From positions 1 to 64,000 of the forward strand of contig CANEHE010000006.1 in the NCBI GenBank assembly GCA_947427285.1: a stretch of 64,000 nucleotides of DNA, written 5' to 3'. The notes beneath the pieces are model-generated. The model had not been told where the DNA came from, searched no databases, and worked only from the letters and a program-made list of their open reading frames with translations. Below are positions 11,486 to 25,912 of this stretch, in pieces. How positions within the stretch are numbered: position 1 is the stretch's first letter; the number at the start of each line of letters is the position of its first letter. Both the position numbers and the translations under genes were made by a program. This DNA comes from an uncultured Porphyromonadaceae bacterium (lineage in GTDB: Bacteria; Bacteroidota; Bacteroidia; Bacteroidales; Muribaculaceae).

Positions 11486-12541
11486 ATGAAAGTGGGACAA
11501 GCCGGCAGACAATCTCATAATAGCGAAGATCATAAACTTATATTGAAGGATATCATAAAGGTAGTCTTTCCTGTCGGTGTGTCCGTATGGATGATATTAT
11601 GGTTCTTTGGAAAGATTGATGTGGCGAAAATGGACCGCATCATATCCGGAGAATGCAATTTCTGGTGGATCGGTCTGATGATGGTGATATCAGTAATGTC
11701 CCATATCATCCGGGGAGTCCGCTGGGGGATACAGCTCAGGGGTGCCGGATTGCCCCGGGTGTCGGTCATGACGGAGAGCCTTTCGATATTCGGGGCGTAT
11801 GCGCTCAATCTGATTTTTCCATTGCTTGGCGAGACGTGGAGATGTGTGTTCATGGCCAGGGAGGAAAAGTCAAAAATGTCCACAGTGGTAGGAACCGACC
11901 TCGGTGATCGCTTTTCGGATGCGGTGGTTATAATTGTGCTCTGTATTCTTGCTATGATCGTGGCTCGGGACAGTATGATTAGATTTAAAGACCATTATCG
12001 TTTTGGTGAGCGGCTGTTGGCGTTTATGGCAGATCCTTGGATATGGGGCAGTGTATTCGGTGTGGTTATTGTATTGGGCCTGATGTTTTATCTGTGCCGT
12101 CAGCGTACTTATGTAGTCAGACTGGTTGATGTGATAAGAGAGCTATGGCGTTCGTTTGCCGTCATGTTCAGGATGAAAGGTCGGGGCATGTATTTGGTTC
12201 TGACGCTTGGGATCTGGATATGTTACTATCTTGAGATATATGTCTGCTTTTTTGCTTTCCCTTTTACGCGGGAATTGATCTCGGATCCCTCTACATTCTA
12301 TGGTCTGATTCCTTGTCTTGTGACTTTTGTGTTCGGGTCGGCCAGTATTGCGATTCCGTCTACCGGAGGACTTGGCCCCTGGAATATTGCTGTAGCCTAT
12401 TCTCTGATGCTTTATGGAATCGGGGAGACTGATGGGGCTGCATACGCAATGGTAGTGTGGGGATTCCGGTCGGCTATGCTTGTTGTTCTGGGACTATTTA
12501 CGGCAGGATGGATTTTTCTCCATCGGCAAAATAATCGTTAA
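11486..12541 (+). CDS. YbhN/lysylphosphatidylglycerol-synthase-TM family membrane protein
   Basis: The 351-residue protein has about eight hydrophobic helices. Family motifs include GVRWGIQLRGAG, LSIFGAYALNLIFPLLGETWRC, TDLGDRFSDAVVII, and near the end STGGLGPWNIAVAYSLMLYGI. This is the UPF0104/COG0392 membrane domain, related to the flippase part of MprF but without the aminoacyl-transfer domain. Such proteins are suspected lipid transporters; the substrate is not known. Its stop codon lies inside the left arm of the palindrome that controls the next gene. Confidence 0.82.
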   Translation: MKVGQAGRQSHNSEDHKLILKDIIKVVFPVGVSVWMILWFFGKIDVAKMDRIISGECNFWWIGLMMVISVMSHIIRGVRWGIQLRGAGLPRVSVMTESLSIFGAYALNLIFPLLGETWRCVFMAREEKSKMSTVVGTDLGDRFSDAVVIIVLCILAMIVARDSMIRFKDHYRFGERLLAFMADPWIWGSVFGVVIVLGLMFYLCRQRTYVVRLVDVIRELWRSFAVMFRMKGRGMYLVLTLGIWICYYLEIYVCFFAFPFTRELISDPSTFYGLIPCLVTFVFGSASIAIPSTGGLGPWNIAVAYSLMLYGIGETDGAAYAMVVWGFRSAMLVVLGLFTAGWIFLHRQNNR

Positions 12542-12608
12542 ATGATGTTTGATTAATATCATTTAACGGTTCGGGGGGTGTAATTATATTTGATTTTATT
12601 AATTTTGC
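12536..12608 (+). promoter_or_regulatory. Palindrome plus G-box promoter A (surface-protein class)
   Basis: The left arm CGTTAAATGATGTT (12536-12549) and right arm AATATCATTTAACG (12555-12568) pair with one mismatch across 5 nt. GTTCGGGGGGTGTAA (12569-12583) comes next. After 16 nt comes TAATTTTGC (12600-12608) inside TTTTATTAATTTTG. No TTTG is present at -33; the G-run ending in GTAA takes its place. The predicted leader to the ATG at 12635 is about 20 nt. Closely matching elements lie at 15796 and 22243. Confidence 0.75.
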
Positions 12609-12634
12609 GACGATATTAATTTAATTCATGAAAT

Positions 12635-15600
12635 ATGAAAAGATTTTCTCTTTCGTTAATTCTGGGCGTTTCGATGCTGTCTGTCTATGCGGCCGAACCC
12701 GAATTGACATTTCAAGGATCGGGAACAGAGACAGATCCGTATCTGATTTCCACTAAAGCGGATGTGTTGGCTCTTGCCGATGCATGTGGTCCTGGGATAG
12801 TGGCCAATGCGGGTCATTATGCCGGAGTATATTTCAAGTTGACGGCAGACATCGATATGGAGAATGCTACAGGATTCTATGGAATCGGCAGTGCGCCTAT
12901 CGGAGTCGCTTCGGCAAATACTTACTATTTCGCCGGAAATTTTGATGGGCAGGGCCATTCCATTAAAAACATGAAGATCTATGGAGTCACGTTCGACGAT
13001 TCAGGCAAAGCCATTACCAAGTATGGAGCCAATCAAGGACGCGCTTTCGTCGGGTTTTTCGGCACAGTCAAGTCGGGAGGCATAGTCCGGAATCTTATCA
13101 TAGATTCATCCTGTTCCGTGACAGGTGTGAAGGATTGCGCGGGTGTTGTAGGTTATCTGGGAGCCGGTGGCACAGTGGAGAATTGTGCCAACTATGCTTC
13201 GGTGACATCCTATCATCAGTTTGCCGGAGGGATCGCCGGAGAGGTGGTGACTACAGCATCCGGTCAGCCGGCAGTAGTCAGGTCAAGTTTCAATGCTGGT
13301 ACTGTCAAGGCAAACAATATGTATGCCGGAGGTATCACAGCAAACAGCTCCTACGCTACAATAGAGGAGTGTGCCAACATCGGATCAGTAAGTGCAACCC
13401 ATTTCAACAGTGCGGCTACGGCGATGTCTCAGAGTCGTGCCGGCGGCATATCAGGCTCTATGACGGGTGCCACTATTGTTGACTGCTTCAATGCGGGAGA
13501 TGTGGTGGCCGACAAGGAATCTGCTGGTGGCATAGTCGGGTATGGAGTTGTCGGAGGTGGCAAAGGAGCCGTGCTGACATGTGTGAATACAGGTGCTGTG
13601 CAAAGCTATTATACTGACAGGATGGGCAATATTGTGGGATATTCTGGTACCAGTACCACTCAGGCCCTTTCGAATGTGGCTTCCTGTTATTACGACGGAC
13701 AGATGCTGAACCAGACGTTTCTCGCCAATGGCGCTGGTGCGTGTCCCGCTGGATCTGTCAAGGGGATGAATACCTCTGTTCTCACTTCCGGCTCGATACT
13801 CGTCGGCTTCTCTTCCCGATGGAAATTCAAAAAAGGTTTTTATCCTGTACCGGCAGCTATTTCCTTTGACGGGCTTGAGAGAGCTGCGGGCACATACGTG
13901 ATGTTTCCGGAAGGGTATGATGCAACACATTTTATAGGGACGGCTACGCTAAGCTCCGCAGTGGAGGGGATTGCGGCCTCTGTTTCGGATGCTCCGGAGG
14001 GAGTGTTCTCTATTGCCGATGGTTCGGTCATTGCTACGCCAGGAGAGAATGTAGTGCTTGGCAAACTGACACTTTCCTTAGGTTCTTTTTCCCGTTCGCT
14101 TCCGGTATGTGCTTATGATATTCCCTTTGAAGGAGAAGGGACCAAGGAGAATCCGTATCTGATTTCTAAGAAATCGGATATGATGGCTTTCGCAAATATC
14201 TCCAACGAAGCGCGTAATCATTGGACCAGCTGTTATTTCAAGATGACTGCTGATATTGACATGGAGGGTGATAAGAACTTCAAGGGTATTGCCGTCGGAC
14301 CCGACAGATATATCAATCAGGGAGCACTTCATCGGTGGTATTTCGACGGTGTGTTGGATGGTGATAATCATAAGATCTCCAATCTTGATATCAATACGGT
14401 CGTTTTTGACGACGGTATCGCCGGAAACTTTTCCACCGGATCCTATCATAACACTGGTCTGTTCGGATCTCTTGGTGCAGGCGCAGAGATACGCAATCTG
14501 ATTCTGGACAAAACGTCTAAGATTACCGGTTATGGGTTGATTGGCGGTATTGCGGGTTCACTCCATCGTGGTCCTGCTGTCATTGACAATTGTCATGTGG
14601 CTGCCACTATCACTGCATATAATCGCTATTGTGGCGGTCTATTCGGTTATAGTGTCGATCATGCCGTGAAGATTACCAATTCGTCCTTCACAGGTACTAT
14701 CCACTCGAATTATGACTATGTCGGGGGTATCGCAGGCTGGAATGGACATGTGGATGCTGTGATTTCTAATTGTGTCAACACAGGACATATTCTTGTTGAG
14801 CGTTTCAATGATTGTGTCCCTTACAACGAGAAAGTGTCGCGGGTAGGTGGACTTTCTGCTGTAAATTCCGGTACGATAGAATATTCTGCCAATTACGGCC
14901 CGGTGGAGATAGATGTGCCTGAAGCTGTCGCCGTAATTGATGGAGTAGGAGGAATATGCGGACAGAACACAAATTCCACCGGTGCCGGTATGGCCTCCAT
15001 CCATCATAATCTGAATGTAGGGCAGGTTTCGGTAAACGGTGGTGTCAGTACGCTCAATGTAGGCAATATACTCGGATGGAGATATTTCGCCGAGAACAAG
15101 ATACAAGGTCTTCTTGCTGCAAACTATTGTGATACTACGCTCAACATGCAGAATATGCCTGTTGACAGCGTTCCGGTGTCCGACACCCGTGAGGCATATA
15201 TCGCCAGAACTACTTCACAGCTTACTTCTGGCACTCCGATAGAGGATCTGGCCGACTGGTTCTCATTTGAGGCCGGATATTATCCAATTCCCAAATCATT
15301 TGCAAATGTGGCCGGTGTGCGTTCTGCCGCTGCGACATTCTTTATTCTTCCAGAAGGAGAGTCGATACGTCGCATTCAGGCAGGCACATGGGCTCCTTTC
15401 AACACAGTATTTGACCTTGAGCCTACCCTTGAGAATGAAAACGGATTTGAGATAAGGAAAGACGGACTCCAGGCATTGGGTTCGGATAGAACCGTATTCA
15501 ATACACTGACTCTCCGCAACGGGGATTACTTCAACTTCTATCCTTTGCGTAAGCTGGCAGGTAACTGGCAGGACGGTGTGGAGACAGTGTCGGATGAGGA

Positions 15601-15730
15601 GATTGTAAAGGTGGAATATTTCACTCCGCAGGGCTTATCTTTGAAAGTTCCTGTTAGAAATCAGGTGACAATTGAGGTAAGCACATCCGTTTCCGGACAA
15701 AAGACAGTCAGGAAAATAATCGGGAAATAA
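12635..15730 (+). CDS. GLUG-repeat surface protein with T9SS-type C-terminus (1031 aa)
   Basis: A signal peptide (about residues 1-19, ending SVYAAE) is followed by two tandem modules. Each opens with a FxGxGTExxPYLIS motif (about residues 25 and 497) and a K-A/S-D helix-like segment, then KLTADIDME- or KMTADIDME-type strands, then several GLUG-type turns (GGIAG or GGIVG followed by I/V-NC-x-N-xG). GLUG repeats form beta-helix-like adhesive or carbohydrate-associated structures in secreted proteins. The last about 40 residues (VEYFTPQGLSLKVP to TVRKIIGK) resemble a type A T9SS sorting signal. I infer a cell-surface or secreted adhesin-like role; no catalytic motif is seen. It has its own promoter and terminator. 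Confidence 0.85.
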   Translation: MKRFSLSLILGVSMLSVYAAEPELTFQGSGTETDPYLISTKADVLALADACGPGIVANAGHYAGVYFKLTADIDMENATGFYGIGSAPIGVASANTYYFAGNFDGQGHSIKNMKIYGVTFDDSGKAITKYGANQGRAFVGFFGTVKSGGIVRNLIIDSSCSVTGVKDCAGVVGYLGAGGTVENCANYASVTSYHQFAGGIAGEVVTTASGQPAVVRSSFNAGTVKANNMYAGGITANSSYATIEECANIGSVSATHFNSAATAMSQSRAGGISGSMTGATIVDCFNAGDVVADKESAGGIVGYGVVGGGKGAVLTCVNTGAVQSYYTDRMGNIVGYSGTSTTQALSNVASCYYDGQMLNQTFLANGAGACPAGSVKGMNTSVLTSGSILVGFSSRWKFKKGFYPVPAAISFDGLERAAGTYVMFPEGYDATHFIGTATLSSAVEGIAASVSDAPEGVFSIADGSVIATPGENVVLGKLTLSLGSFSRSLPVCAYDIPFEGEGTKENPYLISKKSDMMAFANISNEARNHWTSCYFKMTADIDMEGDKNFKGIAVGPDRYINQGALHRWYFDGVLDGDNHKISNLDINTVVFDDGIAGNFSTGSYHNTGLFGSLGAGAEIRNLILDKTSKITGYGLIGGIAGSLHRGPAVIDNCHVAATITAYNRYCGGLFGYSVDHAVKITNSSFTGTIHSNYDYVGGIAGWNGHVDAVISNCVNTGHILVERFNDCVPYNEKVSRVGGLSAVNSGTIEYSANYGPVEIDVPEAVAVIDGVGGICGQNTNSTGAGMASIHHNLNVGQVSVNGGVSTLNVGNILGWRYFAENKIQGLLAANYCDTTLNMQNMPVDSVPVSDTREAYIARTTSQLTSGTPIEDLADWFSFEAGYYPIPKSFANVAGVRSAAATFFILPEGESIRRIQAGTWAPFNTVFDLEPTLENENGFEIRKDGLQALGSDRTVFNTLTLRNGDYFNFYPLRKLAGNWQDGVETVSDEEIVKVEYFTPQGLSLKVPVRNQVTIEVSTSVSGQKTVRKIIGK

Positions 15731-15752
15731 GAGTTTGTTCAAAAAATCAAAG

Positions 15753-15786
15753 AAAGTCAGGCTGCCGCAATCGGTGGTCTGACTTT
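15753..15786 (+). terminator. Terminator after the 1031-aa surface protein gene
   Basis: The 15-bp stem AAAGTCAGGCTGCCG/CGGTGGTCTGACTTT contains three G-T pairs and a 4-nt loop. It is followed by ATTAATAAT and begins 22 nt after the stop. Promoter B starts 9 nt further on. Confidence 0.75.
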
Positions 15787-15795
15787 ATTAATAAT

Positions 15796-15868
15796 CGTTA
15801 AATGATGTTGGGTTAACATCATTTAACGGCTCGAGGAGGGGTAAGCCGCTTCGCTTTTATTAATTTTG
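15796..15868 (+). promoter_or_regulatory. Palindrome plus G-box promoter B (surface-protein class)
   Basis: A perfect 14-bp palindrome CGTTAAATGATGTT/AACATCATTTAACG (15796-15828) has a 5-nt loop. GCTCGAGGAGGGGTAA follows, then 16 nt, then TAATTTTG (15861-15868) inside TTTTATTAATTTTG. The left arm is identical to that of element A. The G of GTAA is exactly 20 nt before the T of TAAT, as in A and C. The leader to the ATG at 15975 is about 100 nt. Confidence 0.78.
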
Positions 15869-15974
15869 TAATCTATAACTTTCGTCTCATACAGGGGGGA
15901 TATGATGCAAAAGGGGGGCCGTCACATCCATTCCTGATTCACTTTTATTTCACAATGAACCCCACGAAAATCGC

Positions 15975-18900
15975 ATGAAACAACTTAAACAAATCTCGGT
16001 TGTGGCGTCGGGACTGATAGCGTTTGCCGCATCGGTCGTGGCTGCTCCGCCTGAATCGGTCGAGGCTCTCATGTCGGGAGGCTTGCCGCCCACACCTGAA
16101 GATTTCTCTTCAGAGATTGTGAACCGACAATTTGCTTCACAGCAGACTATGGATTTTCTCCGGCCGTCAGGTCAGTTCTCTCTGACATCGCCCGGAGAAG
16201 AACTTTCTGTGCGGACTTCTTATTCACGACCTCTCAGAAGCCCGAGAAAAGGCAGTCTGAAGACTGTCGCGGATCTTAAGGGCAACTATGTGATGACATG
16301 TAAGTCGTTGTTGTCTTCTTCTTACGGCGACACAGGTCAGAGTGCCGACATAACTATAGTTGAGGGTACTGACTCCATTCTCATCACTAATTTCTGGTCG
16401 CTCGGGATGCAATTGAAGGCTTGCGTGGATCCAGCTACCGGAAAAGTTACCATACCCAATCAGGTGGTAGGGCAGATGACCGACAACGGTCCGATAGATA
16501 TCGCCTTTTGCAATACCAACGGCACCCCGGATCGTAAGAAAGGAATCGAGGGTTATGTGGATGATGAAGGAAAAATCAATATAACCTCATGGTGGGGAAT
16601 ATATGTGATGAGCGGTATCAACAAGGACCGTTACGCGTATGTTGGAAATGCCACCGTGATGGAACGCTCCAATGCCAGAATGAGTTTCAGTTTCAGCAAC
16701 GGACAGAAAGCTGACTTCGGAGTGATAGTCCGTCAGCCGTATAAAAACCGCTTGCAGGTTGTCAATTTCGGCAATTATGGAATGACGGTAAACATCAATC
16801 TGAACACAAATAAAGGTGGGGTCATTCCATCCCAGGTGGCACGGCAATATCCGCAGAACGCTGATTTCATCACATGTTCGGTAGATGAGTTCACCGATGG
16901 AGGTCTTAAAGGACTACATGCGGATATTGTCCTGAATCAGGCGACTGACAGCCGAACCCTATCCTGGGGAAAGTGGACGGCTGTATCGCAGGGGAAACAG
17001 AATCTGTTTTTTGGTGCGATTATCGACGGACGCATTGTGTGCGACAATGACATAACATATCCTGTGGCTGCCACAGGTGAATGGCAGGGGACAGGCACAC
17101 AGTCAGATCCCTACAGGATCCGTACGCCGGAAGATTTCGTGCTTTTGTCTGACAGAGTCAACAGTGTACCGGATTCTGAACTCACCGAAATGGTCGACGG
17201 GATAAAATGTTGCCGGATGTATGTCGGAAAATATTTCCGGATGGAAAACGATATCGACATGGGTGGTTTTCTGTTCACTCCCGTAGGCGCCAATCTCCAA
17301 CACCGTTTTGCCGGAATATTCGACGGAAACGGACATACTGTCTCCAATCTCACCGAAGATGTCGGCACTGCAGGCATGGCCGGACTTTTCGGTATGACCG
17401 ATTCTGTAAGTGTCATCCGCAATCTGACTCTGGTGAAACCTGTGATTCGTGCCGCCGGTCTGTGTGCGGCTACTGTGGCTGCCTGGAGCGATGGACTTGT
17501 GGAAAACTGCCATGTCAGGGAAGCCGATGTACTGAATGCCGGACGCACAGCAGCCGGACTCGTCGGTCTCGGCACCGAGGTGAAAAACTGTACTGTCGAA
17601 AACAGTCTCATTGACGGACGGGGTGGCAACTCTGCCGGTCTTGCAGGTCAGATTGACAGACTCGTCGAGAATTGTTCTGTGACTGGCAGCGACATATATA
17701 CTGCTACTCCTATTCCGGGATATCCTTCAGGTGGTGTGGTAGCATCGATGAACGGAGCCACGGGCAGATATCTGTATTTCTCAGGAAAAGTGGACGCCGG
17801 TCAGTTCCTTACCTCTCCGGTGGTAGGAGGAGTAGCCGGTATTCTGAGTCGGGGCACTCTTGAGAAATCATTTGCCGTCGGCAAGATCATCGGTGGTTTC
17901 GAAGATGTCAATGTGCCTAACGCACAGCCTATTGCTGGCGGACTGGTGGGCCAGATGTCTGGTTCGCGCATTGAAGACTGTTATTCTGTGGGGAATGTTT
18001 CCACACGTTTGTCCCGTATGACAGGAGGTCTTACGGGTCTTGTGCGCAAATATGATGATGGTAAGGGAAATGTCCAGATGCCGGAACTTAAAAATTGCTT
18101 TACAGCCACCTCTATCGTATCGGAAACCTATCAGTATAATCCGGAAACGGAGATTCGTGAGTCAATGGGCAGCATAGCCGACGGCACTGAACTCAAAGCA
18201 GAGAATGTCTACTACGACAAACAGGTCACTAACCTTAATTCCAGACGCCACGGAGTGTTGACCTCCGTACTGACATCAGCCTCGGGACCAGTCGGTTTCG
18301 ATTCAAGTGTATGGAACTTCAAGGAAGGACAGTATCCTCGTCTGAAAGGGATAGATGACAATGAGGCGGCTTCTCTCTCTGGATCAGCATTGGTGATTCA
18401 TGAGCGCAGCAGCATGAAGAAACTCTCAAAGGATGCCGAAGTGCATCCTTTGGGAAACACACTTTATAGATTTCTTGTCAATGACACCGTCCGTGCTGTC
18501 GGACGTTATTGTTCCATAGAGGATGGAAAACTCAAGATTACCGAGGATTTTGGAACTGACACGCTGATGGTGGTCAACGGGAATGTCTCGATGACTTTTG
18601 AAATCAAGGTAGCTCCCGTTCCGTTTCTGGGCGAAGGAACAGCCACTACTCCCTATCTGATTTCCTCAAAAAGTGATCTGGTGGCCCTGTCAAGGATAAC
18701 AACTAAGGTGAAACAGTATTTCCCCGAAACTTATTTCTTGATGACCAATGATATCGACATGGAATATGATAAGGATTTCGAAGGTATCGCGGCCGATCAG
18801 GACGCCTATTGTAAATTTGCTGGAATATTCGACGGAGGGAATAATACCGTAAGACGTATACGACTGGACTGGGTGGTATGGAAAGATCCTCAGCCTGCCG

Positions 18901-21900
18901 ACGGAGAGATAGGTACACCCGATGACAATGGCTCAATGTATAACGGCCGCAAGGGATTCATTGGCAGTCTTGCCCCTGAGGGGATTCTGCGTAATCTCAA
19001 TATTGCTGCGGATTGTAAATTCATGTTCTGGGCGCGTTCGGCGGCTTTGGTCGGACAGAACGAGGGTCTGGTGGAGAATTGCCGAAACTATGCCGATGTG
19101 ACATGCATCAGCACAAATCCGGGGGGAATAGTGGGTGAAAACCGTAAGGGCACAATCCTCAACTGTTATAATGAAGGCGACATCACTTCAGGATTCAACT
19201 GTGCCGGAGGTATTGTCGGCAGCAACGCAGGAAAGGTTATAGGATGTGCCAATGCAGGCGACGTGACGGTGAAATCGATATCTTCATTCCAGGGACCAAA
19301 TCTCACTATATTCCGCAATGCAGGCGGTATAGCCGGAGAGTCGACCGGAGGACTATATGAAGATTGCGTGAACTTTGGCACTGTCTTTGCTAAAAATTAT
19401 GGTGCCGGTGGTATTTCGGGCACTCTGGGGAATGTCTCTTCTTCCACTGCTGTAGGAAAGAACTCCCTCCGTAATGTGATCAATATCGGAATGGTTTCTG
19501 CAGCCGATATCACACGTATCGGAGCACTTGGTGGAGTTGCCGGAACAAAAGGTGAAATAACCAATGCTTTCTGGGACGGACAGATCATAACTGTAAAGGC
19601 GAATGGAAACGGACATCTTAAAGGAGCTGAAGGAATCAACACCTCTGTGCTAACCTCCGGGAAAACATTGGATGGGTTTGACCCCGTGATGTGGCAGTTT
19701 GATGCTGGGATGTATCCCGTGCTGAAGCGGTTTGCCTCGGAGCCGAGGATTGACCGTGCACGTCGTGCAGTAGTGACTATGGATGCGGTAAGCACAGCCC
19801 GGCGTCTGCGCACAGATGCTGTCCTTGCAAAAGCCGACGGTCTTGTGTGGTCGCTGAGTCAGGGAAAGCATTTCACTATTGCGGCAGATCTGATGAAGTC
19901 TCCCGGAAATGTGGAAAGTCTGGTAGGTGATACCCTTTTGGCTGATTTCGGGACGTATGTCAAGTCGATACCGATATTTTGTCCTCCCGCTGTTCCTCTT
20001 GCTGGAGAAGGATCAGAAGAGAAACCATATATCATATCAACCACCGATGACTGGAATAGTCTCTCGGATTTCGCGACCCGTAACGGAGAGGATTTTACGG
20101 GCCAGTTCATAAGTCTCGCCTCAGATCTCGACTTCACGGAAAAGACGTTCAAGCCTTTGTTTGCGGACGGGATAACTTCTTTCGGAGGGACATTGCTTGG
20201 AGCCGGCCATCTGGTAAAAGGCATAGATTTCACTGCCGCAGCTACGTTTAATGCGCCTATCGGGGTAGTTGACGTTCCAGCCACGGTTTCCGATCTGACG
20301 CTTGAGGGGAAGGTGTCATCTACATTCGCCAATACCGGAGGTTTTACCGGTAAGGTCTACGGCAGGCTCGTCAATCTTGTCAATAGAGTGGATGTGATAT
20401 CTACAAAGGCATCCACCTCTGCGTTCGGATATCTTTACAGCGGGGCATTCTTGCAGAATGTGGCCAATGAGGGTACTATCACGTCATCGTCGGGAACTTT
20501 GGCCGGTATTGCGGCTATGGCCGACGAAGGGGTGTCGTTTACCGATGTGACAAACAAGGGCGAGATCCGTACTACCGGAACGTCCACTGTGACTTATGTG
20601 GGTGGCATTGTGGCTAACTCCATGCCCTCTTCATTTCTGCGGTGTGCCAACAATGGTAAGTTTACATTCTCAAAGCCTGAGGCTACAAACGGAGTTGGCG
20701 GTATAATCGGATATGCCAATTCGTCATCTGCCCGGATTGCCGCCATGACTCTGACCGATTGCCATAATACTGCCGAGATAACGGCAAATAATTATCTGGG
20801 AGGACTTATCGGCAATCTCAATGCATCAGTTTCCGCGACCAATCCTTTGGTGCTGGCTGACTGCTCCAACACGGCGGATATCGCATCTGTGGCCGTCAAA
20901 TCAACCACTGGAGCCGGTACGGCCGGAATCACAGCTCTATATTCACCGGGGTCGGTGATCCGCAATTGCTGGAATACTGGCAAAATAGTCTCTTCTAAAA
21001 ATACTTATACGGCTGGCATCACTGCCGTTCAGAAGGTAGCTCCGACAGAGGCTCTTCCGGTTCTTGTGTCAGGATGTAGCAATAGTGGAGATATCGAGGC
21101 CAATGGAAATCAGGGTGCTGGGATAATGGCTACTATGGCCGCATATACCACTGTAGACAGTTGCGTCAACTCCGGAAATATTACTGGTGGATGGGGTCTC
21201 GGAGGAATAGTGGGATCTCTGCTTGGGGTCAATGCGCGGATACATGCATGTTATAATACCGGTACCATACATACATCGGTCAACCGATCTGGCGGTATTG
21301 TGGCTTATAATCAGAGTGATGCTTTTGTGTCGGACTGCATCAACTTCGGAGCTGTCAGCACTGCTCTCACAGAGGGAGGCACGAATATGAATACTTCCGG
21401 TTATGCGATCGGAGGTATTGCCGGATACGGAGCTTCGGAGTTCCTTCGCTGCATTAATCTCGGTAAAGTGGAGGGCCCCTCTCAAGTTGGAGGAATACTT
21501 GGTTATACCTATCCGAAACGCACGAAATTGATCGATTGTATCAATCTCGGGGAGATTGTCGCTCCCGCTGATACATGCGGTTCGATTGTCGGGGCAGACC
21601 TTTCGAATCCCAAGATGTGGACGGCAGAGAACAAGACCAAAGGCTGTCTGTTTATCACTCCTTCTTCCGAACAGAAAAACAATTCTATCGGTAAATCTGT
21701 ATGTGAGTCCGAACTGGCATCAATCGAAATGGCCGCTGGCTGGTCTCGTAGTGACAACTATACTTATCCTATGCCTGAGGCACTGACTCCGGATACGCTG
21801 AAAGTAGTGGCAGCGAGAATGATTCTGGTAGATGATGAGAGTGCAGACAATGTGACGCGTGACTTCTTTGTGGGAAATCCGGAGGGTGTCACATGGACTG

Positions 21901-22199
21901 CCTCGGTGCCTAATCTGACTTTTGACGGTACGGATGCGAGATTCTCTTCCGAGGACTACAAGGGAGAAATCACTCTTACTGTCACTGCCGGCGATCACTC
22001 CCGTTCTTATCAGATCGGAGTCAATTGGATAAATGCGGTTGATGCGATAGATGTGGAGTCGACTGTGATCGGAGAATTGTTCTTTACTCCGGAAGGGATC
22101 AGATGTGCCGCTCCGACACATAAAGATGGAAAAGTATATCTCGTGATCCGTCTTTATGAGAATGGAAATCGTACAGCTGAAAAAGTTTTGAACCGATAA
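15975..22199 (+). CDS. Giant GLUG-repeat surface protein with T9SS-type C-terminus (2074 aa)
   Basis: A signal peptide (about 1-23, ending VVAAPP) is followed by a unique N-terminal region (about 25-365, with LKGNYVMTCKSLL and a repeat-free beta pattern). Three GLUG modules follow, each opening with a GxGTxxxPYxI motif at about residues 371, 885 and 1342. Within each module come GGIVG/GGIAG turns followed by NCxNxG (for example GGIVGENRKGTILNCYNEGD). The C-terminus (ELFFTPEGIRCAAP to VYLVIRLYENGNRTAEKVLNR) looks like a T9SS sorting domain. It appears to be an expanded paralogue of the upstream 1031-residue protein. A surface adhesin or glycan-binding role is inferred. Confidence 0.85.
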   Translation: MKQLKQISVVASGLIAFAASVVAAPPESVEALMSGGLPPTPEDFSSEIVNRQFASQQTMDFLRPSGQFSLTSPGEELSVRTSYSRPLRSPRKGSLKTVADLKGNYVMTCKSLLSSSYGDTGQSADITIVEGTDSILITNFWSLGMQLKACVDPATGKVTIPNQVVGQMTDNGPIDIAFCNTNGTPDRKKGIEGYVDDEGKINITSWWGIYVMSGINKDRYAYVGNATVMERSNARMSFSFSNGQKADFGVIVRQPYKNRLQVVNFGNYGMTVNINLNTNKGGVIPSQVARQYPQNADFITCSVDEFTDGGLKGLHADIVLNQATDSRTLSWGKWTAVSQGKQNLFFGAIIDGRIVCDNDITYPVAATGEWQGTGTQSDPYRIRTPEDFVLLSDRVNSVPDSELTEMVDGIKCCRMYVGKYFRMENDIDMGGFLFTPVGANLQHRFAGIFDGNGHTVSNLTEDVGTAGMAGLFGMTDSVSVIRNLTLVKPVIRAAGLCAATVAAWSDGLVENCHVREADVLNAGRTAAGLVGLGTEVKNCTVENSLIDGRGGNSAGLAGQIDRLVENCSVTGSDIYTATPIPGYPSGGVVASMNGATGRYLYFSGKVDAGQFLTSPVVGGVAGILSRGTLEKSFAVGKIIGGFEDVNVPNAQPIAGGLVGQMSGSRIEDCYSVGNVSTRLSRMTGGLTGLVRKYDDGKGNVQMPELKNCFTATSIVSETYQYNPETEIRESMGSIADGTELKAENVYYDKQVTNLNSRRHGVLTSVLTSASGPVGFDSSVWNFKEGQYPRLKGIDDNEAASLSGSALVIHERSSMKKLSKDAEVHPLGNTLYRFLVNDTVRAVGRYCSIEDGKLKITEDFGTDTLMVVNGNVSMTFEIKVAPVPFLGEGTATTPYLISSKSDLVALSRITTKVKQYFPETYFLMTNDIDMEYDKDFEGIAADQDAYCKFAGIFDGGNNTVRRIRLDWVVWKDPQPADGEIGTPDDNGSMYNGRKGFIGSLAPEGILRNLNIAADCKFMFWARSAALVGQNEGLVENCRNYADVTCISTNPGGIVGENRKGTILNCYNEGDITSGFNCAGGIVGSNAGKVIGCANAGDVTVKSISSFQGPNLTIFRNAGGIAGESTGGLYEDCVNFGTVFAKNYGAGGISGTLGNVSSSTAVGKNSLRNVINIGMVSAADITRIGALGGVAGTKGEITNAFWDGQIITVKANGNGHLKGAEGINTSVLTSGKTLDGFDPVMWQFDAGMYPVLKRFASEPRIDRARRAVVTMDAVSTARRLRTDAVLAKADGLVWSLSQGKHFTIAADLMKSPGNVESLVGDTLLADFGTYVKSIPIFCPPAVPLAGEGSEEKPYIISTTDDWNSLSDFATRNGEDFTGQFISLASDLDFTEKTFKPLFADGITSFGGTLLGAGHLVKGIDFTAAATFNAPIGVVDVPATVSDLTLEGKVSSTFANTGGFTGKVYGRLVNLVNRVDVISTKASTSAFGYLYSGAFLQNVANEGTITSSSGTLAGIAAMADEGVSFTDVTNKGEIRTTGTSTVTYVGGIVANSMPSSFLRCANNGKFTFSKPEATNGVGGIIGYANSSSARIAAMTLTDCHNTAEITANNYLGGLIGNLNASVSATNPLVLADCSNTADIASVAVKSTTGAGTAGITALYSPGSVIRNCWNTGKIVSSKNTYTAGITAVQKVAPTEALPVLVSGCSNSGDIEANGNQGAGIMATMAAYTTVDSCVNSGNITGGWGLGGIVGSLLGVNARIHACYNTGTIHTSVNRSGGIVAYNQSDAFVSDCINFGAVSTALTEGGTNMNTSGYAIGGIAGYGASEFLRCINLGKVEGPSQVGGILGYTYPKRTKLIDCINLGEIVAPADTCGSIVGADLSNPKMWTAENKTKGCLFITPSSEQKNNSIGKSVCESELASIEMAAGWSRSDNYTYPMPEALTPDTLKVVAARMILVDDESADNVTRDFFVGNPEGVTWTASVPNLTFDGTDARFSSEDYKGEITLTVTAGDHSRSYQIGVNWINAVDAIDVESTVIGELFFTPEGIRCAAPTHKDGKVYLVIRLYENGNRTAEKVLNR

Positions 22200-22203
22200 T
22201 CAA

Positions 22204-22242
22204 CAGAAAGTCCCTGAATTCTCAAAGTTCAGGGACTTTCTG
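22204..22242 (+). terminator. Terminator after the 2074-aa surface protein gene
   Basis: A perfect 15-bp stem CAGAAAGTCCCTGAA/TTCAGGGACTTTCTG has a 9-nt loop and starts 5 nt after the stop codon. The next palindrome begins at the very next base, 22243. Confidence 0.82.
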
Positions 22243-22314
22243 CGTTAAATAATCTTAATATTAAGATTATTTAATGGCTCGAGGGGGTAAACCGAAACGG
22301 TTTTATTAACTTTG
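22243..22314 (+). promoter_or_regulatory. Palindrome plus G-box promoter C (surface-protein class)
   Basis: A 17-bp palindrome CGTTAAATAATCTTAAT/ATTAAGATTATTTAATG (22243-22276, no loop, outermost-but-one mismatch) precedes GCTCGAGGGGGTAA. After 16 nt comes TAACTTTG (22307-22314) inside TTTTATTAACTTTG. The inner palindrome sequence differs from A and B. The outer half-sites CGTTAAAT/ATTTAAyG, the G-box and the spacing are retained. Confidence 0.75.
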
Positions 22315-22423
22315 TAGCAATTCTTGTAATGTAATGGAATCTATATACGGCAGTGTAAGGTTTTTTTATTATTTTGCAGAATCGTTTATTCATAATAATA
22401 CTGTTTCAATAATTATCAACTTT

Positions 22424-25400
22424 ATGAAGTCAAGACTATTATGGCTGTCATGTCTGATGACGGGTGCCATGTTTCTTTCTCCTGATGTCGCGGCCAGACA
22501 GGGTGCTCCTCACTCTGTGATGGCTAAGGCCAACTATTCCGCTGTCACAGTGGATTGGAAGGCATCTGATGCAAAAAAGGAGTTGAAACTCCACAACGAC
22601 AACGACTATGACGGAGATTCCGGCGTACAGACTAGTTCGCAACATCCTTGCGTGATTTATGTGGCGTCGGAGTTTTCTCCTTCCGATCTCACTCTTCTGG
22701 AGGGAGAGAAGATTGTGTCGCTCAATTATTTCGAATATCGTCCTACCTTGCGTGTGACCGCCATGATATGGGAGGATGGTGTGTTGGTGCGTGAGGCGGA
22801 TGCCAATCTTGCCGTACCGGCCTTTGAGAAAGATCAATGGCGCACGGTGACATTTGCCGAACCGTATCAGATTGCCAAAGGGAAGACGGTCCGGATAGGA
22901 TTCCGTATTGAGCACGGTACTAATGTCGATTTTGTGGCTATTATGGATCGTTCGCATGATTCACGCGGTGACCTGCGTTCCTACGATGGCAAGAACTGGG
23001 TGCACAACGGACGCGGTACATACCTTGTGACAGCGAATCTGCTCAACGAGACAGATGAGGCTCCGGACGGATACAATGTATATGCCGACGGCAAGAAGGC
23101 CAATGAGGCACTTTTGTCCAGTTCTTCGCTGATGCTGCCTGCACAGACCGACGGTGCTCATCTTTATAAGGTGGAGGCTGTATACGGCACGCAGTCCTAT
23201 TTCACTCCGGAAGTGCCTGTGACCGTAAAGAGTGCGGGTATGTATTTCCCCTCTGTAGGTGCGGCTACAGCTGCCACTGATGCCATGAAAGGTACTCTCC
23301 ATTGGAAAGCCCCGTTGCTGAAAGGGGAGGGCAATACTCTGTCTTGGTCTGATTCCCAATATAACAGTGCGATAGGCGGAACGGCCTCCTCAAATACCAA
23401 GGTATGGATCAAGAATGAATTCGAACAGGCCGACCTTCTTGCTTTCGCAGGTTCCAGAATCACAGCGATCAATGCCCATTTCCACGAGAAAGAGGCAAAG
23501 AGTATGATTGTTTTCGTGATGAAAGACGGTGTCATAGCCCACTATGATAGTGTGCCGGAGACTAAGATCGCTGAAATCGCGGCTGACGCATGGATTAAGA
23601 TCCCTCTATCCGCTCCTGTCGAGATTGAGCCGGGCCACTCATACGCTTACGGATATTATCTGATCCATACACCCAAGACACATCCGGTCAGCACGGACAA
23701 GACTGAAGCTATGGGCAGCAAGGCTAATTCATTCTCGACCTCATCATCCAATTCCAAGGATTTCGCCACCAGCAAGCCTTCCTGGAAAACTCTGGCTTCC
23801 GGCGGACTCCCCGGTGGATGGATGCTGACAGCAGATGTGGAAGGTACGGTCGCCTCATACGGAACTGTCGCCTCATACAATGTGTGGCGCGACGGCGAGA
23901 AAGTCGCTTCCGCTCTGAAAACCACTGAATGGGAAGACGAGGTGCCGGCCCCCGGTGTCTACACTTACGGTATCGAGGCTGTCGGTTCGGATGGCAAGAC
24001 CTCTGATCTATATACCGTCAAGGCCACATACAAGCTCCCAGATTCTTATCGTGCGCCGCTGATAGGTTCCTCCAAACTCGATAAGGAGACCCAGACAGTA
24101 TCGTTCGACTGGGGAATGGATGTGGAGCTCAAGCATTATGGCTCTGCTACCTACAAAGTCGGTTTCGATGAGGATATGGTTCTTTCCTACGGTTCACGTT
24201 TCACTGCCGCCGAACTGGCCGACTATGAGGGTTACACCATCCGCAAACTTAATTTCGTCATAGGCGAGGATATTCCAGCCGGTTTCAAGCTGGAGATCAT
24301 CAATGGCGAAGGCAAGACGGTAGCAAGTCAGGAGATCGCTCCAAATACGGTGCAGCCTCTGGCAATGTATTCGCTTGAACTTGATGCGCCTGTCACCATT
24401 ACCGGCAAGGAGGATCTCATACTCGCATATACAGCTACTCTTCCAGGCAAAACATCACCTATCGTGCTTGATGCCGGTCCGCTTGTGACAGGTGGAGCTG
24501 TCGTCAAGTTGCCCGGAATGAGCTGGATCAATCTCGGTACTATCAACGCCACATATAACAATTACAATATTGTGATCGGTGCTGTGGTGAGTGAGAATGA
24601 ATCCGAGTCTGCTCCCCAGAGAATCCTTTCACGCAATAGTGATGAACTGGCTCATGCTTTTGAACTTCCGGTCATCAACGCTGCTTCCGCTGCCGATGGT
24701 TTTGGAATCGGTTCGCTCAAAGCTCCCTCTGAGCCTCAGAAACGTGCGTTGAAGCCCACCACCTACAATGTGTATCGCAATGGAGAACTGGCATTGTCTA
24801 CCTCAGACCGCTCTTTCTCGGAGAAACTTCCTTCGTACGACACCTGGACTTACACTGTGACTGCTGTCTATCCCAACGGCTGGGAGTCGGCTGAATCGGA
24901 CCCCTTGATCATAGAAAATCCTGTCAATCAGGCTGGACCTGCGCCTTATGATCTCCGTGGCGACTTTAACAGTCTTACCTGGAAGGCTCCGGAGACCGCA
25001 CCCGTGTTGACATATGCCAAAAACGGAAAGAGCTTCGGTGTCGGTATGACCGGATCCGGTACGCGTGAGACATTTGCTGTTCACAAATATCCTGTCGATT
25101 CGCTCAAGACTGCGGTCGGGCAGAGAATAAGCCATATCCGTTTCGCTCTCTTCAGCACTGAGCTTAACTCGGCCTCGATTGTAATTCTGAAGAATTTCAA
25201 TATTGTATATGAGCAGCCCGTGGCTGTCTCTGATCTGGTGACAGTGACAGATGGTTATAACGAAATCCGCCTCAATCAGCCATACGAGATAGACGGCAAG
25301 GGCGAATTGATGATCGGTTATCATATCACATACGCCAATGGTATCAAGCCGATGATTTTCGACGAAGGACCCGCCGATGACGGCCTCGGAAATCTCCTTT

Positions 25401-25912
25401 CCGCGTCTGCTTCCCAGACTTCCTGGAAGACCCTTAAGAGCCTTAACAAGGATCTGGATGGCAACTGGCGTATATATGCTGTGTTGGAGACACCGGACAT
25501 ACATACCGTGATGAAGATGCGCCGCAGTTCCGATGCCCGCACTTATAATATCTATCGTGACGGTACTCTATTCAAGAGTGGTCTGACTTCCGAGTCATAC
25601 TCACAGGAGACCTCTCTGTCTGGCGGTCGTTACACCGTGACGGCTGTGACCGGTGATGTGGAATCCGCACCCTCCAATGAGTATTATCTCGACAATTCAG
25701 GGGTTGAATCCATCGGAATGGAGTCTGACGGAGCACGGTATGACGCCGCTACCGCTACGATGATTATTTCCGAAGGCCATTCCGGCACAATATTCGATGC
25801 CGCCGGACGCCGCATGATGTATCTGAAGGGGACTGTTTCGGTAGCTTCCTTGTCTGCCGGGGTCTACATCTATGTTGATGCCGATGGTTCCACACTGAGA
25901 TTCGTGCGCTGA
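22424..25912 (+). CDS. Four-repeat adhesin-like secreted protein with T9SS sorting domain (1163 aa)
   Basis: The ATG at 22424 gives a signal peptide (MKSRLLWLSCLMTGAMFLS); an upstream in-frame ATG at 22334 would not. The protein contains four tandem about 200-250-residue units. Each opens with a V/F-x-W-like strand (VDWKAS, LHWKAP, SFDWGM, LTWKAP). Each then has a jelly-roll pattern with an I-x-P-G/K-x-x-x-GY/GF type motif, then an FnIII-like strand set (YNVYADG, YNVWRDG, YNVYRNG, YNIYRDG). This resembles the cleaved-adhesin/FnIII organisation of gingipain haemagglutinin regions. The C-terminus (FDAAGRRMMYLKG, SAGVYIYVDADG) is a clear type A T9SS sorting domain. It is surface or secreted; its ligand is unknown. 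Confidence 0.85.
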   Translation: MKSRLLWLSCLMTGAMFLSPDVAARQGAPHSVMAKANYSAVTVDWKASDAKKELKLHNDNDYDGDSGVQTSSQHPCVIYVASEFSPSDLTLLEGEKIVSLNYFEYRPTLRVTAMIWEDGVLVREADANLAVPAFEKDQWRTVTFAEPYQIAKGKTVRIGFRIEHGTNVDFVAIMDRSHDSRGDLRSYDGKNWVHNGRGTYLVTANLLNETDEAPDGYNVYADGKKANEALLSSSSLMLPAQTDGAHLYKVEAVYGTQSYFTPEVPVTVKSAGMYFPSVGAATAATDAMKGTLHWKAPLLKGEGNTLSWSDSQYNSAIGGTASSNTKVWIKNEFEQADLLAFAGSRITAINAHFHEKEAKSMIVFVMKDGVIAHYDSVPETKIAEIAADAWIKIPLSAPVEIEPGHSYAYGYYLIHTPKTHPVSTDKTEAMGSKANSFSTSSSNSKDFATSKPSWKTLASGGLPGGWMLTADVEGTVASYGTVASYNVWRDGEKVASALKTTEWEDEVPAPGVYTYGIEAVGSDGKTSDLYTVKATYKLPDSYRAPLIGSSKLDKETQTVSFDWGMDVELKHYGSATYKVGFDEDMVLSYGSRFTAAELADYEGYTIRKLNFVIGEDIPAGFKLEIINGEGKTVASQEIAPNTVQPLAMYSLELDAPVTITGKEDLILAYTATLPGKTSPIVLDAGPLVTGGAVVKLPGMSWINLGTINATYNNYNIVIGAVVSENESESAPQRILSRNSDELAHAFELPVINAASAADGFGIGSLKAPSEPQKRALKPTTYNVYRNGELALSTSDRSFSEKLPSYDTWTYTVTAVYPNGWESAESDPLIIENPVNQAGPAPYDLRGDFNSLTWKAPETAPVLTYAKNGKSFGVGMTGSGTRETFAVHKYPVDSLKTAVGQRISHIRFALFSTELNSASIVILKNFNIVYEQPVAVSDLVTVTDGYNEIRLNQPYEIDGKGELMIGYHITYANGIKPMIFDEGPADDGLGNLLSASASQTSWKTLKSLNKDLDGNWRIYAVLETPDIHTVMKMRRSSDARTYNIYRDGTLFKSGLTSESYSQETSLSGGRYTVTAVTGDVESAPSNEYYLDNSGVESIGMESDGARYDAATATMIISEGHSGTIFDAAGRRMMYLKGTVSVASLSAGVYIYVDADGSTLRFVR

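Follow-up and report, generated by a model that had tools for sequence, protein, structure and literature searches.

Does one dedicated promoter serve the genes for three giant surface proteins that lie close together in an uncultured gut bacterium? The window analyzed here is 64,000 nucleotides (nt) of contig CANEHE010000006.1 (assembly GCA_947427285.1), from a member of the Muribaculaceae (GTDB), the family that includes Duncaniella muris. The original prediction was that the same ordered element precedes all three genes: a palindrome, a G-rich box ending in GTAA, and TAAnTTTG. We found all three copies where they had been placed (Table 1), far above chance: the half-site pair GTTAAAT-N10-22-ATTTAA matched the window five times, at three sites of which two matched on both strands, against 0.03 matches expected, and 0 of 100 shuffles of the window reached five. 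The distances between half-sites (25, 25, and 26 nt in copies 1, 2, and 3) were also confirmed, as was the different inner palindrome of copy 3, whose two arms have changed together. Our data suggest, with a probability that we put at about 0.68, that this element belongs to a class of promoters that depend on an activator and are read by the primary (sigma-ABfr-type) RNA polymerase; the class would serve mainly genes for secreted, fimbrial, and outer membrane proteins in the Muribaculaceae and some other Bacteroidales.

What is conserved beyond the window? In relatives, the core of the element consists of TTAAC-N5-TTAAC, a G run mostly of 7 to 9, TAA, usually 15 to 16 nt, and then TAnnTTTG. 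The tandem direct repeat with its 10-nt period, which was set by our search pattern, lies upstream of the core promoter and occurs far above the reversed control; a weak A/T periodicity is visible further upstream, near -10 and -20. In at least 8 of 37 stretches around fimbrillin genes of relatives (G064, G063, and G007), we recognized by eye the same layout free of a palindrome, with a pair of TTAAY-like boxes that repeat every 10 nt, followed by a G run that closes with TA(A) and by a -7 box. A pattern that makes no demand on the -7 box (TTAAC-N5-TTAAC-N3-14-GGGGTAA) matched 145 of the family's 297 genomes, in 22 of its 30 genera, with one reversed-pattern match in total. Among the 29 readable sites in 30 loci returned by this pattern, 22 carried TAnnTTTG at 14 to 19 nt (11 at 16 nt and 7 at 15 nt), versus 0 of 219 control windows. 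With GTAA as the only requirement in place of the G run, 75 matches were obtained in 42 of 111 genomes of the genus with no control matches; 58 of these had GGGGTAA, and some of the other 17 were still G-rich. The full pattern matched 12 of 392 genomes across the order (one reversed-control match), namely, the window's own genome, five of six others of its family, each from another genus, and members of three other families (3 of 6, 2 of 4, and 1 of 1), so that at the full pattern the element is taxonomically restricted.

When one genome was scanned for each species, at least 117 stretches were obtained, each with one element; counts out of 117 refer throughout to the matches listed. Titles were given for 80 of the listed records, 79 of which name Bacteroidales groups (some by Candidatus names) and include records titled Prevotella, Paraprevotella, and Marseilla. 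One record is labeled Paenibacillus (L171, G520), with match coordinates identical to those of a genome of the own family (G685). The predicted distance of exactly 16 nt from GTAA to TAAn holds in all three window copies but not as a constant; elsewhere it is only the commonest value, and the overall range from TAA to the -7 box is 14 to 21 nt, with 15 to 16 nt most frequent. In six copies from Prevotella-titled records (L111, L149, L151, L163, L167, and L178), the -7 box follows TAA after 20 to 21 nt; in one more such copy (L143), the distance is 16 nt. At L289 and L295, TTAAC/G-run sites that carry no -7 box are followed by similar stretches, GTAACTATTCAG and GTAACTACTCAG, perhaps another element type.

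An element scattered through coding sequence would not suit the original prediction. Only 1 of the 117 listed elements lies wholly within an open reading frame (at least 100 amino acids), and the prediction stands on this point. The -7 box precedes the first ATG by a median of 54 nt in the 101 listed elements with a readable frame behind them; behind the other 16, no frame was readable. Using a crude signal-peptide rule for distinct first genes within 300 nt, we predicted 76 of 91 first genes to be secreted, versus 44 of 142 behind control promoters, i.e., other intergenic TAnnTTTG sites in the same loci (Fisher p ~1e-15). All open reading frames of the loci, element genes included, gave 293 of 636, and a simpler rule called 88 of 101 element genes versus 233 of 535. 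A profile scan of 102 distinct downstream proteins (E up to 0.001) revealed BspA leucine-rich repeats (LRR_5) in 10, DUF3575 in 7, the DUF6562 fimbrillin family in 4, and Pfam Por_Secre_tail in 3. These data support a dedicated promoter class with parts in fixed order, placed between genes and biased toward secreted products; the set that it serves is wider than first described, being family-wide and including fimbrillins, BspA-type leucine-rich repeat proteins, and DUF3575 proteins. The element also stands before closely similar ATPase genes of ABC transporters (L147:2249-3166 and L181:4783-5700), a recurrent target that is not secreted.

The own genome (G000; 2.38 megabases) holds 13 copies pooled over all searches: three in the window (contig C6), three on C4, two on C7, and one each on C10, C18, C19, C21, and C22. 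Whole-genome patterns for the palindrome and for the G-box promoter found eight and seven sites, respectively, each with 0 reversed-pattern controls. Is the palindrome a defining part of the element, as the original prediction had it? This claim was not supported: the palindrome is missing from 4 of the 13 own copies and is found in 1 of 117 listed copies elsewhere, about the level of shuffled sequence. Only the right half is present at C4:124305, C7:83337, and C10:56551, the C21:4635 copy has no palindrome, and that of C22 is shifted by one base. Scored as the positions of 15 that pair with the upstream flank, the nine own palindromes reached 11 to 14 and the four other own copies 11, 8, 7, and 9. 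Elsewhere, a score of at least 12 was reached by a single listed copy (L151); shuffled flanks reached it in 0.25 percent of cases, so that 0.3 palindromes are expected by chance in 117 copies. The palindrome was rejected as the core: in 150 relatives, a search for the palindrome together with the promoter matched two genomes, the own one and G030. The single G030 match differs in its inner sequence and precedes a lysyl-tRNA synthetase-like gene. A looser GTTAA/TTAACGG search of the genus gave matches in 7 of its 111 genomes, against 4 for the control, and one (G007) of the six others led to a fimbrillin. The palindrome is a local elaboration of a wider promoter class; in the own genome, a mirrored second half-site would have been added in most copies. 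An invertible promoter of the Bacteroidales type was rejected as well, as the palindrome arms are at most 5 nt apart and the promoter lies outside the inverted repeats rather than between them.

Genes behind the own copies outside the window include a DUF6562 fimbrillin (C4:13201), a BspA-type leucine-rich repeat protein with two similarly starting genes behind it (C4:123176), a shared fimbrillin N terminus in two places (C4:124305 and C7:55943), and a 690-amino-acid protein with a signal-peptide-like start (C21), which by eye we take for a TonB-type receptor. Because the contigs of the C7:83337, C10, C18, C19, and C22 copies break off within one fimbrillin leader or a close variant of it, their genes are presumed to be fimbrillins. 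Six fimbrillin-type copies are identical over 42 to 51 nt downstream of the G run. Contigs C4, C7, C10, C18, C19, and C22 (L237, L246, L248, L005, L006, and L014) end within ~220 nt beyond an element, in this leader or a close variant. A repeated module of promoter, leader, and N terminus probably breaks the assembly, and fimbrillin copy number may thus be underestimated. On C7, a fimbrillin with the common N terminus changes frame after ~65 codons (L024:7680-9868), which is either real or an assembly chimera.

How tightly are the parts spaced? We compared 141 distinct match strings among the matches listed, excluding five own strings of the palindrome type. The second TTAAC lies 11 to 13 nt from TAA in 95 of them (38 at 12 nt and 35 at 13 nt), within the 7 to 18 nt permitted by the pattern, and the G run is at least 7 long in 123. 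The lengths of the non-G spacer and of the G run are negatively correlated (r = -0.50; 0 of 10,000 permutations were as tight), some of which comes free because a spacer-final G is counted as part of the run. The two parts trade off, so the total spacing is held. The length of the G run itself varies. In the draft genome titled Candidatus Equimonas enterica (G521), 9 of 10 copies were compared, and runs of 8 and 7 G occur in C8 and C137 (with 47 identical nt above the run and 40 below it) and in C195 and C200 (23 nt above and 94 nt below), runs of 8 and 6 G occur in C8 and C79 (21 nt above and 45 nt below), and C137 and C219 both have 7. Five of the six pairs among four near-identical copies (8, 6, 7, and 7 G) differ, the comparison being of paralogs within one draft genome rather than of strains, with assembly error possible. 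In the own genome, the runs compared outside the window are 4 to 7 G long. Slippage would leave variation of this kind.

These features can be assembled into a model in which a putative activator would bind DNA at the two TTAAC boxes, one helical turn apart; an OmpR/PhoB-type response regulator is its most likely identity. The boxes would lie ~11 to 13 nt upstream of TAA, one and two turns upstream of the G run/TAA position; the G run and TAA would occupy roughly the expected place of the -33 box, counted from TAnnTTTG, and the -7 box would follow ~16 nt after TAA. From its held distance to the core, the activator would touch RNA polymerase. A box that is repeated after 10 nt, with its distance to the core maintained, fits an OmpR/PhoB-type activator that contacts the polymerase. 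The operators of CpxR, PhoP, and PhoB are short direct repeats with a period of 10 to 11 nt upstream of the core promoter, a likeness to the present element, which differs in its TTAAC-N5-TTAAC sequence and in the G run that follows. The sequences establish the architecture and its breadth, the placed -7 box, the bias toward secreted products, the held spacing, and the variable G run; we infer activation rather than repression, a regulator of this class, and a G run whose length would tune expression; a single regulator for all copies is plausible. OmpR-type proteins were present in 18 of 18 genomes tried, with three in the own genome, and the type found in all 18 is presumably RprY-like. A LytTR-type operator was provisionally set aside by its consensus.

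Several findings weigh against this model. No OmpR-type clade follows element content in a tree of the 18 genomes (14 of 56 proteins were dropped by a filter), and the type found in all 18 also occurs in genomes that have no exact element. No G-run element was present in 30 scanned loci around OmpR-type genes, which gave two loose matches to the TTAAC pair (L318 and L329). Exact matches were missing from 152 of the 297 family genomes, and 7 of the 29 sites found by the -7-free pattern had no TAnnTTTG at the expected place. In that 29-site set, 17 of 25 readable genes looked secreted, fewer than in the larger set, and some downstream genes appear non-secreted by look or family (ABC ATPases, radical SAM proteins, glycosyltransferases, and an enolase). 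Part of the likeness among own copies reflects recent duplication of fimbrillin promoters and their leaders.

Could a different sigma factor account for the same architecture? An alternative sigma factor of the extracytoplasmic function (ECF) type might read GGGGTAA as a -35 box with a 16-nt spacer and need no activator. The commonest spacing of 15 to 16 nt and the presence of GGGGTAA in place of the -33 box would suit it, and one own C7 copy is directly preceded by genes (L024:10100-13780) that by sequence resemble those for an ECF sigma factor, an anti-sigma factor, and a TonB-type receptor. However, the downstream box TAnnTTTG is what the available text of PMC7366714 gives as the primary sigma factor's -7 consensus, its distance from TAA is as variable as given above, and a sigma factor would have no need of the TTAAC pair that is present at held spacing. 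We consider ECF recognition unlikely.

Palindromes are common at repressor sites, and the sequence alone is compatible with TTAAC boxes that bind a repressor and silence surface genes with an otherwise strong core promoter. Yet the boxes lie upstream of -33 rather than over the -7 box or the start, at a held distance to the core that is usual for activators, and repression is also improbable in our judgment. The copies might instead be a dispersed repeat, a mobile or recombined module of no regulatory function, as the exact sharing downstream of the G run in six own copies and the six contigs that end just beyond an element would allow. Against this, copies occur in 145 genomes and 22 genera, flanks diverge widely in the 117 listed copies, first genes are biased toward secreted products, and 22 of 29 sites have a placed -7 box; because core and spacing are conserved amid divergent flanks, this explanation is largely refuted and seems very unlikely. 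Least probable of all is an RNA hairpin that would terminate or attenuate the upstream transcript, for although the nine own palindromes fold at -8.5 to -15.6 kcal/mol and the inner arms of copy 3 co-change, no T run follows the palindrome in the copies listed, the palindrome is missing or not enriched in the copies counted above, and an Rfam search of the window at gathering scores returned two tRNAs only, none near a palindrome.

How does the activator-dependent class compare with known promoters? In sigma-ABfr promoters, the -33 and -7 boxes are 19 to 21 nt apart. For Bacteroides, the available text of PMC7366714 gives TAnnTTTG at -7 and TTTG at -33. The present element shares the -7 box and differs in having GGGGTAA in the -33 region instead of TTTG, along with the upstream tandem boxes; TTTG at -33 occurs in 0 of the 117 listed elements, a circular count given that all were preselected for GGGGTAA at about that place. 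The nearest analogue in terms of working may be the fimbrial promoters of Bordetella. There, the fim2, fim3, and fimX promoters combine a C stretch with a fim box and depend on BvgA. These fimbrial genes share a promoter element in which the length of a homopolymer tract alters transcription (PMC1891110, as far as available). In both cases, the activator site (putative here) is separated from the -7 box by a homopolymer that differs in length among otherwise identical copies. The effect of length on transcription is Bordetella's, whereas here length variation is known from sequence. The tract here is a poly-G of ~8 rather than a poly-C of ~7 to 20, and it is combined with TTAAC tandem boxes and a sigma-ABfr -7 box, in an unrelated phylum and before many different surface genes in many genera. 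Within the Bacteroidales, the two-component regulator FimS/FimR of Porphyromonas gingivalis acts on a fimbrial promoter, that of mfa1, to which it binds directly; the available part of this source (PMC1974823) offered no binding motif for comparison, nor did those of PMC3764172 and PMC8050853 contain a comparable motif. In the open-license PMC literature (titles and starts of abstracts), we found no described motif for surface genes of the Muribaculaceae and none on a TTAAC direct repeat in Bacteroides.

In the window, the copy 3 protein has an RGI_lyase beta-sheet domain over the cut-off and DUF4082 and Lectin_like below it; a start at 22424, which provides the signal peptide, is more likely than one at 22334. 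None of the three window proteins has a curated match to a sorting domain of the type IX secretion system. Targets of a PorX/SigP regulon would be the machinery of this system or proteins sorted by it, and a link of the present element to such sorting may exist. The type A sorting domain (TIGR04183) falls just below the cut-off in the tails of the copy 3 protein (E 0.027; window:25610-25909) and of the own BspA-type protein (E 0.031; L023:9491-9790), and it was found in 6 of the 102 downstream proteins, a figure that has no background rate for comparison. By eye, the C termini of the other two giant proteins bear some resemblance to these tails.

Table 1. Parts of the three window copies and the genes that follow them
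Feature	Coordinates	Strand	Remarks
Copy 1 palindrome	12536..12568	+	Local elaboration; overlaps stop codon of upstream gene (12539-12541)
Copy 1 core tandem boxes	12553..12567	+	TTAAT-N5-TTAAC, 10-nt period
Copy 1 G-rich box	12568..12583	+	Ends in GTAA
Copy 1 -7 box	12600..12607	+	TAATTTTG; primary sigma factor type
Copy 1 gene	12635..15730	+	1031 amino acids; signal-peptide-like start; no Pfam/NCBIfam match
Copy 2 palindrome	15796..15828	+	
Copy 2 core tandem boxes	15813..15827	+	TTAAC-N5-TTAAC
Copy 2 G-rich box	15828..15844	+	Ends in GTAA
Copy 2 -7 box	15861..15868	+	TAATTTTG
Copy 2 gene	15975..22199	+	2074 amino acids; signal-peptide-like start; GLUG motif
Copy 3 palindrome	22243..22276	+	Inner arms changed yet complementary
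Copy 3 core tandem boxes	22261..22275	+	TTAAG-N5-TTAAT
Copy 3 G-rich box	22276..22290	+	Ends in GTAA
Copy 3 -7 box	22307..22314	+	TAACTTTG
Copy 3 gene	22424..25912	+	1162 amino acids; signal-peptide-like start

Muribaculaceae are among the commonest bacteria of the mouse gut. We propose, as a tentative and rather doubtful extension, that their surface proteome is under the joint control of a single regulator and a hypermutable spacer, the G run: slippage by one or two G would shift the phasing between the TTAAC boxes and the core, so that each gene, whether for a fimbrillin, a leucine-rich repeat adhesin, or a giant secreted protein, might be independently tuned or phase-varied within one regulon. 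Bacteroides is known to vary its surface by DNA inversion (PMC4747536, in its available part); a homopolymer route, if true, would differ from it. A simple pattern predicts the members of one putative surface regulon in many genera, and the G run suggests a way, if this holds, for the output of each gene to drift or switch.

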